A program made the position numbers and the translations under genes. Below the pieces are notes generated by a model that was not told the DNA's origin, made no database searches, and was given only the letters and a program-made list of their open reading frames with translations. A stretch of DNA of 10,435 nucleotides from Gemmatimonadota bacterium. GTDB lineage: Bacteria > 4572-55 > J002. Positions 7,817-10,262 of the stretch are shown one piece after another (the first letter of the stretch is position 1; every line of letters begins with the position of its first letter). The DNA lies in the NCBI GenBank assembly GCA_003697105.1, contig RFFQ01000129.1, positions 1 to 10,435 of the forward strand, written 5' to 3'.

Positions 7817-7848
7817 AAAACGCCCCGTCAGATAAAACTGACAGGGCG
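7817..7848 (-). terminator. Terminator after tRNA-Trp
   Basis: An 11-bp stem (7821-7831 with 7838-7848) and a 6-base loop. The one mismatch on the plus strand becomes a U-G pair in the minus-strand RNA, and the stem is followed there by TTTTC. The hairpin is therefore best formed in the tRNA-Trp transcript. The short U run may let some transcription pass into the downstream membrane protein gene. Confidence 0.85.
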
Positions 7849-7854
7849 ATTACA

Positions 7855-7930
7855 TGGCAGGAGTGGCAGGAATCGAACCCGCAGCCCTCGGTTTTGGAGA
7901 CCGATGCTCTGCCAATTGAGCTACACTCCT
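7855..7930 (-). tRNA. trnW: tRNA-Trp (anticodon CCA)
   Basis: A canonical 76-nt cloverleaf on the minus strand. The acceptor stem AGGAGTG pairs with CACTCCT, followed by discriminator G and an encoded CCA (7857-7855). The D-arm contains AGCTCAATTGGCAGAGC. The anticodon loop CTCCAAA reads UGG through anticodon CCA, and the T-arm is CGGGTTCGAATCCTG. It decodes tryptophan. It stands alone with its own promoter and terminator, not in the tuf-secE context common elsewhere. Confidence 0.98.
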
Positions 7931-7943
7931 ATATTTGGACGGT

Positions 7944-7972
7944 ATATTAGTGCGATTGATCCCGATTGTCAA
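7944..7972 (-). promoter_or_regulatory. Promoter of tRNA-Trp
   Basis: TTGACA (7972-7967), a 17-base spacer and TAATAT (7949-7944) on the minus strand. The predicted start near 7937 lies about 7 bases before the tRNA 5' end, as expected for a stable RNA promoter. Confidence 0.85.
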
Positions 7973-8031: not shown

Positions 8032-8037
8032 GAATAC

Positions 8038-8149
8038 TGGTGAGCAGGGTGGAATCGAACCACAATCAGCCGCAACTGACCCGGTACTCGCAACTGGCTT
8101 TCTAACCCGGTAACAGCATGTTACTGCTTGCTGACCACAGCTCCTGCCC
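8038..8149 (-). ncRNA. CCA-ended tRNA-like RNA of 112 nt, identity unresolved
   Basis: The 3' half is plainly tRNA-like: a 7-bp acceptor stem (GGGCAGG at 8149-8143 with CCTGCTC at 8048-8042, one G-U), discriminator A, encoded CCA, and a T-arm GTGG-TTCGATT-CCAC (8063-8049). The rest is not canonical. The T-stem has only 4 bp, so acceptor plus T-stem total 11 bp, or 8+4 if U8150-A8041 is added, which would cost the encoded CCA. The total length is 112 nt and no 7-base loop gives a sensible anticodon. GGTCAGC (8136-8130) can pair with GCTGATT (8070-8064) directly beside the T-arm, a tmRNA-like layout; alternatively GCTG/CAGC forms a minimal D-arm. GTAACA-TGC-TGTTAC makes an internal hairpin. It has a consensus promoter and a terminator. 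It could be an expanded or decaying type II tRNA, an allo-tRNA-like form, or a tRNA-like regulatory RNA. I do not call it tRNA-Sec: no UCA loop is present. Confidence 0.55.
8071..8114. repeat. Imperfect tandem duplication inside the tRNA-like RNA
   Basis: On the plus strand CGCAACTG then ACCCGGTAC occurs at 8071-8087 and again at 8089-8113. In the second copy the 8 bases GCTTTCTA separate the two parts. The extra length of the RNA relative to a type II tRNA is similar to one copy of this unit. Confidence 0.6.
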
Positions 8150-8192
8150 AGTGTGATGTCAATTTTTAGAATGATCGATAAATCAGTACAGA

Positions 8193-8221
8193 TATATAAT
8201 TGGTATAATCCGTGTTGTCAA
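8193..8221 (-). promoter_or_regulatory. Promoter of the tRNA-like RNA
   Basis: TTGACA (8221-8216), a 17-base spacer and TATATA (8198-8193) on the minus strand. The predicted start near 8186 gives a leader of about 37 bases before the acceptor stem at 8149, presumably removed by RNase P-like processing if the RNA is handled as a tRNA. Confidence 0.75.
8201..8209 (+). promoter_or_regulatory. Extended -10 promoter, probably for ygiQ
   Basis: TGGTATAAT (8201-8209) is an extended -10 element on the plus strand without a good -35 box. A second TATAAT lies at 8195-8200. It lies within the divergent minus-strand promoter and would give a leader of about 130 bases to the ygiQ start. Confidence 0.45.
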
Positions 8222-8348
8222 GGTTTTTGTTAGGTGTTTTTGGTCGTTTTCAGAATAAAACGCGATTTTTCTTGCGATAAGGGGTGTATTTATGTATTTA
8301 AAAGAAAATACGGATGCCATTATGTTGATTTTTTATCTGGGAGAAACC

Positions 8349-10262
8349 ATGAGCTATCGGTTGACTGACTGGTTACCCATCACCAAAAAAGAAGTTGAGA
8401 TGCGGGGTTGGGACGAACTCGATGTCATCCTCATTTCCGGTGATGCCTATGTCGATCATCCGGCATTTGGGCATGCCGTCATCGGACGCATCATCGAATC
8501 TGAAGGATTTCGGGTAGCGATTGTACCCCAACCCAACTGGCGGGATGACTGGCGCGACTTCAAGAAGATGGGCAAACCGCGTTACTTTTTTGGAGTTACC
8601 GCCGGTTGTATGGACCCGATGGTCAATCACTATACCGCCAACAAACGCCGGCGCTCCAACGATGCCTACACCCCCGGCGGAAAAGCTGGCTTCCGCCCCG
8701 ATTATGCCACCACGGTTTACACCCAAATTCTAAAAAAACTCTACCCCGATGTGCCCGTGATTATTGGTGGGATTGAGGCGTCTCTACGACGCGTGACTCA
8801 TTACGATTATTGGTCAGACCGGCTCATGCCCTCTATTCTGGTAGATTCAGGGGCAGACCTGCTGGTTTATGGCATGGGAGAACAACCCCTCCGCCAAATT
8901 TTAGCCCTGATGCGCAAAGGCGTTCCCTTTTCGTCACTCAAAACGATCCCCCAAACCGCGTTTTTACAGGATGCTAACCAACCCCTACCCAAAAATAAAA
9001 AATGGGAGACGCTCGAACTGGCCTCCCATGAGGAATGTTTGAATGACAAACGGACTTTCGCCCGTAATTTCAAGCACATTGAACAGGAATCCAACAAGCA
9101 ATTTGCCAACCGATTGACCCAGCGCACCGGGGATCATCTGCTAGTTATCAACCCCCCATTCCAGACGATGACGGAACACGAGATCGATGCCTCATTTGAT
9201 CTGCCCTATACGCGTATGCCACATCCCAAGTACAAAAAACGGGGAGCTATCCCCGCCTATGAGATGATCCGCCACTCCGTGAACATGCACCGGGGTTGCT
9301 TTGGCGGCTGTAGTTTCTGTACGATTTCTGCCCATCAAGGTAAAATGATCGCCAGTCGCTCTAAAGCATCCATCCTGAAAGAAGTGGAACAAATAACTCA
9401 AATGCCTGATTTTAAAGGGTATATCAGCGATCTAGGTGGTCCCTCTGCGAATATGTATAAAATGAAAGGCAAAGACCCATCCATTTGCGATCGCTGCGTC
9501 AGTCCCTCGTGTATTCACCCGACCGTGTGCCACAATCTGGATACCAGCCATAAGGCATTAACCGATATTTACCAATCGGTTCAGGCACATCCAAAGGTGA
9601 AAAAGGCGTTTGTCTCCAGTGGTGTGCGCTACGACCTGTGTCTCAGCCAATCCGAAGAAGCGGCAAAAACAGATGGAAAAGCAGAGTACATCGAGCAATT
9701 GGTCACCCACCATGTCTCCGGGCGGCTTAAAGTTGCTCCAGAACATACCTCCGAGGAAGTACTACGCCTGATGCGAAAACCCAAATTTACCTATTTCCAT
9801 GAATTCAAAAAACGCTTTGACGCCATCTGTAAAAAAGCCGGTCTCAACCAACAACTGATCCCCTATTTTATTTCCAGTCACCCCGGCAGCGACATCGAAG
9901 ATATGGCAAATCTAGCAGTGGAAACCAAAGCGCTCGGCTTTCAGTTAGAGCAAGTGCAAGATTTTACCCCCACCCCCATGACGGTGGCGACCGTGATTTA
10001 CTACTCCGGGTACCATCCCTATACGCTCAAACCGGTGAAAACGGTCAAAACACAAAACGAAAAACAACAACAGCATAAATTTTTCTTTTGGTACAAACCG
10101 GAATACCGCCGCTGGATTCGTACCACGTTGGATAAAATCGGGCGTTCCGATTTAGCCGATAAACTGCTTCAACCGGATAAATCCCACCCGAAAAAGCGTA
10201 CCTTGCTTAATCAACGAAACATCACCAAATATAAACCACGAAAAACATCCGGTAAAAAATAA
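8349..10262 (+). CDS. ygiQ: YgiQ family radical SAM protein
   Basis: A 637-residue cytoplasmic iron-sulfur protein of the YgiQ (UPF0313) family; the reaction it catalyses is unknown to me. The family opening L-T-D-W-L-P-I-T-K-K-E-V-E-M-R-G-W-D-E-L-D is at once recognisable, followed by ISGDAYVDHPAFG. The radical SAM cluster motif C317-x3-C321-x2-C324 (CFGGCSFC) binds the [4Fe-4S] cluster. A second cysteine group, C380, C383, C388 and C394, follows. The C-terminal DUF3362-like part runs from Q-D-F-T-P-T-P-M-T through G-Y-H-P-Y-T, and the end is lysine- and arginine-rich. The start at 8349 is chosen because GGGAG lies 5 bases upstream and homologues begin here; an in-frame ATG at 8292 with AAGGGG upstream would add 19 residues without family similarity. 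The gene is monocistronic, closed by a terminator. Confidence 0.95.
   Translation: MSYRLTDWLPITKKEVEMRGWDELDVILISGDAYVDHPAFGHAVIGRIIESEGFRVAIVPQPNWRDDWRDFKKMGKPRYFFGVTAGCMDPMVNHYTANKRRRSNDAYTPGGKAGFRPDYATTVYTQILKKLYPDVPVIIGGIEASLRRVTHYDYWSDRLMPSILVDSGADLLVYGMGEQPLRQILALMRKGVPFSSLKTIPQTAFLQDANQPLPKNKKWETLELASHEECLNDKRTFARNFKHIEQESNKQFANRLTQRTGDHLLVINPPFQTMTEHEIDASFDLPYTRMPHPKYKKRGAIPAYEMIRHSVNMHRGCFGGCSFCTISAHQGKMIASRSKASILKEVEQITQMPDFKGYISDLGGPSANMYKMKGKDPSICDRCVSPSCIHPTVCHNLDTSHKALTDIYQSVQAHPKVKKAFVSSGVRYDLCLSQSEEAAKTDGKAEYIEQLVTHHVSGRLKVAPEHTSEEVLRLMRKPKFTYFHEFKKRFDAICKKAGLNQQLIPYFISSHPGSDIEDMANLAVETKALGFQLEQVQDFTPTPMTVATVIYYSGYHPYTLKPVKTVKTQNEKQQQHKFFFWYKPEYRRWIRTTLDKIGRSDLADKLLQPDKSHPKKRTLLNQRNITKYKPRKTSGKK

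Follow-up and report, generated by a model that had tools for sequence, protein, structure and literature searches.

Non-translational pseudo-tRNAs and irregular allo-tRNAs are already known. The tRNA-Other of Bacillus cereus is a pseudo-tRNA that is poorly aminoacylated, does not associate with polysomes and has a non-translational role (PMC3399842). Irregular allo-tRNAs (allo-tRNA-UAU, soil polycistrons), which were reported to be unusable in E. coli, have an extra junction stem, a 4-bp T-stem, stem-destabilising changes and sometimes an extra -1 pair (PMC7609411, reviewing Mukai et al. 2017). Here we describe one sequence from one genome, a tRNA-like RNA in a 10,435-nucleotide stretch of Gemmatimonadota DNA (the window), whose locus has the appearance of a genuine transcription unit that derives from a tRNA and does not belong to the standard set. 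Like tRNA-Other, it is a tRNA-like gene that lies outside the translating set, and its non-standard structure also agrees with a pseudo-tRNA. Compared by description, tRNA-Other differs in possessing a Trp anticodon and in being part of a longer RNA next to a genomic island (PMC3399842), whereas the RNA here is a tight promoter-terminator unit of 112 nt with no clear anticodon. With the irregular allo-tRNAs it shares the extra junction stem, the 4-bp T-stem, the stem-destabilising changes and a possible -1 pair, but allo-tRNAs have an 8/4 or 9/3 branch and many have Ser or Ala identity (PMC7609411). The RNA here is a single gene beside tRNA-Trp, and neither the Ser determinant (G73) nor the Ala determinant (G3:U70) is present, the discriminator being A73 and the G-U pair being G2:U71 in the register set by the CCA. 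Its acceptor and T stems sum to 7+4, the 11 bp originally counted, and approach the 12-bp allo-tRNA branch, as 8+4, only if U-1 pairs with A73. Bacterial tRNA-Sec (RF01852) has in common with it the UGGU D-loop, the UUCGAUU T-loop and a long variable region, although the RNA here lacks the 8+5 branch and the UCA anticodon and has discriminator A. The likeness to tmRNA (RF00023) is confined to a P2-like helix that can be drawn below the acceptor (8130-8136/8064-8070); its 7 pairs exist as proposed in the original prediction (5 Watson-Crick and 2 G-U), but folding gives the helix a probability of about 0.005, and the RNA is only 112 nt long with no match to the tmRNA model.

The RNA is encoded on the minus strand, as are all of its features given below, and runs from 8149 to 8038: GGGCAGG A GCUG UGGU CAGC A AGCAGUAACAUGCUGUU A CCGGGUUAGAAAGCCAGUUGCGAGUACCGGGUCAGUUGCGGCUGAUU GUGG UUCGAUU CCAC CCUGCUC A CCA. 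The 112-nt length, the 7-bp acceptor with discriminator A and CCA, the T-arm around TTCGATT and a terminator 6 bases past the CCA had all been described from the sequence, and all are in place. Upstream, a -35 box TTGACA (8216-8221) is separated by 17 nt from a -10 box TATATA (8193-8198), the last base of which is 43 nt upstream of the drawn 5' end of the RNA. This promoter scores 10/12; when the upstream 100 bases were shuffled 2000 times, 76 of the shuffles scored at least 10. The elements are therefore present as first reported, but to call them a consensus promoter was generous, because the -10 box matches TATAAT at only 4/6 positions. Many tRNA genes of this genome have promoters of the same style (TTGACA-17-TATATT/TATTAT/TAATAT). 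Downstream, the intrinsic terminator AAAGCACG...CGTGCTTT followed by TTGTTTG occupies 8031-8000. The next gene is an ordinary tRNA-Trp (7930-7855), and the tRNA-Trp unit (window 7821-7972) has its own promoter, TTGACA-17-TAATAT, and its own terminator, so the tRNA-like gene is a separate unit. The tRNA-Trp promoter is similar to that of tRNA-Leu(CAG) on contig C161. On the other side, the first ATG of the ygiQ frame is at 8292, but ATG 8349 (MSYRLTDW...) is the likelier start because similarity to most relatives begins near residue 24; a start at 8349 would separate the RNA from ygiQ by approximately 200 bp. Within the leader, ACUGG (8148-8152) is able to pair with CCAGU at the CCA (8036-8040); in the primary transcript the acceptor stem would have to compete with this pairing.

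The outer half of the RNA is firm, in that the acceptor, T and D-like stems are all strongly predicted. The acceptor 5' strand GGGCAGG (8143-8149) forms 7/7 pairs, one of them G-U, with the 3' strand CCTGCTC (8042-8048), with pair probabilities of 0.99-1.0, and is followed by the discriminator A73 (8041) and an encoded CCA (8040-8038). The T-arm GUGG-UUCGAUU-CCAC (8049-8063) has a fully paired 4-bp stem with a probability of about 0.88. An elongator tRNA would join a 7-bp acceptor and CCA, which the RNA has, to a 5-bp T-stem in a 7/5 branch, but here the T-stem stops at 4 bp, and pairing at the fifth position would be U.C. Overlooked in the original prediction was a D-like hairpin, GCUG-UGGU-CAGC (8130-8141), with a probability of about 0.71; when interiors were shuffled, a hairpin with exactly this UGGU loop and 4-bp stem arose in the same position in 0.06% of them, in what was a post hoc test. 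Next to it is a second hairpin, AGCAGUA-ACA-UGCUGUU (8112-8128), with a probability of about 0.6, that occupies the position of an anticodon arm and can alternatively be drawn with 5 bp and the 7-nt loop UAACAUG, without U33. A D hairpin plus a 5/7 arm in this geometry is found in 2.1% of shuffles. Beyond the second hairpin, the remaining 48 nt have two folds of roughly equal likelihood: the predicted structures include a possible long variable arm of up to 9 bp (8067-8096; RNA 54-62/75-83) and, about as likely, an alternative 6-bp hairpin at 8065-8080.

What might explain a tRNA body with intact ends and such an irregular middle? The interior contains a direct repeat, ACCGGGTTAGAAAGCCAGTTGCG (8089-8111) and ACCGGGTCAGTTGCG (8071-8085, with an 8-nt gap relative to the first copy), in which ACCGGGT[TAGAAAGC]CAGTTGCG is aligned with ACCGGGT-CAGTTGCG, 7+8 nt being identical; the self-alignment score was reached in 2 of 500 shuffles. 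Deleting one copy in silico shortens the RNA to 86 or 94 nt, about as long as a class II tRNA. With default settings ARAGORN calls these shortened versions tRNA-Asn(GUU), a call with the same ends being made for 15 of 500 shuffled interiors (3%). The repeat and the deletion test both came to attention post hoc, so their p-values are flattering. The Asn call takes U-1 as its first base, one position before the acceptor that the CCA defines, and therefore does not use the CCA in its normal place. Taken together, the repeat and the Asn call give moderate support to a tRNA with an expanded variable region. A second candidate, a diverged repeat of RNA 1-13 and 14-27, was rejected after 318 of 2000 shuffles matched it.

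We consider it about an even bet that the RNA is a lineage-restricted, transcribed but non-decoding pseudo-tRNA, remodelled by a rearrangement of its middle that probably included a partial duplication. We infer that a tRNA gene would have kept its transcription unit and both ends of the tRNA body while the middle was rearranged, and an RNA with such a middle would most likely be unable to read codons once mature. Transcription would begin at its own sigma-70-type promoter and stop at the hairpin past the CCA. With the acceptor/T-arm half unbroken, RNase P would be expected to cut the 5' end, and the 3' end to be trimmed to the encoded CCA. The product may then simply be degraded as inert, a by-product, or may have a non-translational role in which it occupies tRNA-binding proteins. 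Against the pseudo-tRNA stand the U-1 start of the Asn call, the post hoc nature of the two tests above and two further observations. The acceptor, D-like and T stems are undamaged where long decay should damage them, and so they do not look like the outcome of long neutral decay. The parent tRNA is also not recognisable: compared with 75 tRNAs of two genomes, that of the RNA and a related one, the interior matches no better than shuffles do, and as it resembles no tRNA of its own genome it did not arise by recent copying from one. By eye, tRNA-Ser(CGA) seemed a good match to the 3' half, and tRNA-Sec to some parts, but both resemblances were at shuffle level. The original prediction had left the choice between a new tRNA-like RNA and a tRNA in decay that has kept its promoter; the tRNA derivation and the tRNA-type promoter and terminator stand, a new functional class does not follow from one copy with no homologue in the searches, and the repeat, with the tRNA call after removal of one copy, inclines us towards a tRNA that was remodelled or is decaying.

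The intact stems could alternatively be those of a functional, non-decoding tRNA-like regulator. It would mimic a tRNA, carry extra hairpins and either bind a protein that recognises tRNAs (a synthetase, EF-Tu, RNase P or some other) or be charged for non-ribosomal use. Such a regulator would account for the dedicated promoter and terminator, for the preservation of every outer stem, for a UGGU D-loop and UUCGAUU T-loop identical to those of the genome's own tRNA-Sec, and for an acceptor plus discriminator identical to tRNA-Tyr at 13/15 positions, but we regard it as rather unlikely. The Tyr likeness is weak, since 2 of 45 real tRNAs match another isotype equally well, and we set it aside as evidence. 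The stability of the whole fold is ordinary (z -1.19, equalled by 25 of 200 shuffles). No homologue was found in the genomes, phages, plasmids or viral contigs searched. The RNA is present once in its own genome by DNA search, and DNA searches of 60 relatives, of the phylum and of 385 further genomes detected no homologue, the short matches being T-arm fragments or chance; a covariance model of the RNA had no match in 386 genomes. The phylum sample consisted of one other genome, G001, of the same class but another family, in which neither ygiQ nor an RNA match was found; a short match there was rejected as it falls within what appears by eye to be an aminoacyl-tRNA synthetase coding sequence. 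Judged by YgiQ, the relatives in GTDB are mostly Calditrichia and Bacteroidota, at no more than 75% identity, and the covariance model recognised the RNA at none of eight ygiQ loci (mostly Calditrichia). Synteny via the glycosyltransferase gene identified no relative among the genome contigs searched, and there was no match in phages and plasmids by distant blastn or in viral contigs with four exact patterns. More specific still, and improbable in our estimate, would be a new free-standing bacterial tRNA mimic, CCA-ended, with a five- or six-stem junction, an elbow of D- and T-loops and no anticodon, that engages tRNA-binding proteins. If related species had kept the RNA and its stems covaried, it would be a rare bacterial tRNA mimic that does not decode and a test case for the re-use of tRNA genes; if not, it would be an example of a tRNA gene decaying while its promoter and terminator persist.

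Could the RNA still decode? The original prediction saw no anticodon arm with U33 and a 7-base loop. In fact two can be drawn: ACAUG-CUGUUAC-CGGGU (8105-8121, anticodon GUU), with 4/5 pairs and one A.G mismatch, and CCGGG-UUAGAAA-GCCAG (8094-8110, anticodon AGA), with 3/5 pairs. Both arms are mispaired and of a quality common by chance, and the hairpin at 8128-8112, with which the GUU arm is mutually exclusive, is stronger than either. Arms with U33 and a 7-base loop occur in shuffled interiors at 48% with at least 3 pairs and 16% with at least 4. Forcing the GUU arm costs 5.6 kcal/mol, or 9.0 with the D arm chosen by ARAGORN, and forcing the AGA arm costs 3.8 kcal/mol; for 75 real tRNAs from this genome and its relative, the cloverleaf is 0 to 7.0 kcal/mol above the minimum, and at most 5.0 above it in 72 of the 75. 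A decoding arm is thus possible yet disfavoured. A working tRNA of exceptional architecture, reading with GUU (or AGA) and having a variable region of ~40 nt and an allo-tRNA-like 8+4 or 7+4 branch, would fit the C32, U33 and A37 of the loop CUGUUAC, the acceptance of the shortened versions as tRNA-Asn(GUU) and a GUU arm whose cost falls within the range of real tRNAs. We think it quite improbable: the 5-bp anticodon stem would contain a G-U pair besides its A.G mismatch, the hairpin at 8128-8112 is preferred, the full ARAGORN cloverleaf exceeds the real-tRNA range, and the genome already has an ordinary tRNA-Asn.

Neither ARAGORN nor the Rfam models, at their cut-offs, recognise the RNA, and the original statement that it fits no known tRNA, tRNA-Sec or tmRNA agrees with them. 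ARAGORN with default settings leaves it uncalled, tRNA-Trp being the sole call in the window, and neither ARAGORN nor Rfam RF00005 gives a standard tRNA call. RF00023 had no match in the window at E values up to 5, nor at the locus in a whole-genome search. The sole matching Rfam family is tRNA-Sec, whose gathering score of 47 bits is far above the 24.8 bits obtained (E 0.0035 on 151 bases). This match and the UGGU D-loop and 4-bp T-stem would suit a tRNA-Sec relative, either a second selC-like gene or an allo-tRNA, but that origin is very doubtful: the match uses a different 5' strand, from 8135, with two mismatches, and ignores the CCA, its end running into it; there is no UCA loop and no 8+5 (or 9+4) branch; the discriminator is A, not G; and a regular tRNA-Sec(UCA) is already present on contig C25, at 63 bits. 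That the locus is a chance or assembly artefact and no gene is the least credible reading, for although it comes from a draft assembly of 199 contigs and was seen in no second genome, the 7-bp acceptor, CCA, T-arm, promoter and terminator are in register on the same strand.

In addition to that tRNA-Sec, the genome has a normal tmRNA (contig C143) and 44 other tRNAs over the cut-off, including Asn, all four Ser, five Leu and Tyr. With its own tRNA-Sec and tmRNA and a nearly full tRNA set, nothing obvious depends on the tRNA-like RNA. Annotation pipelines miss such genes because neither ARAGORN nor Rfam models call them. Absent among the scored hits are tRNA-Ile(GAU), tRNA-Ala(UGC) and tRNA-Glu(CUC); tRNA-Ile(GAU) and tRNA-Ala(UGC) usually belong to rRNA operons, and the assembly may lack those operons. 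A tRNA-Leu at C78:5377-5459 has the anticodon AAG; the related genome G001 has GAG, as do most bacteria in that tRNA-Leu.
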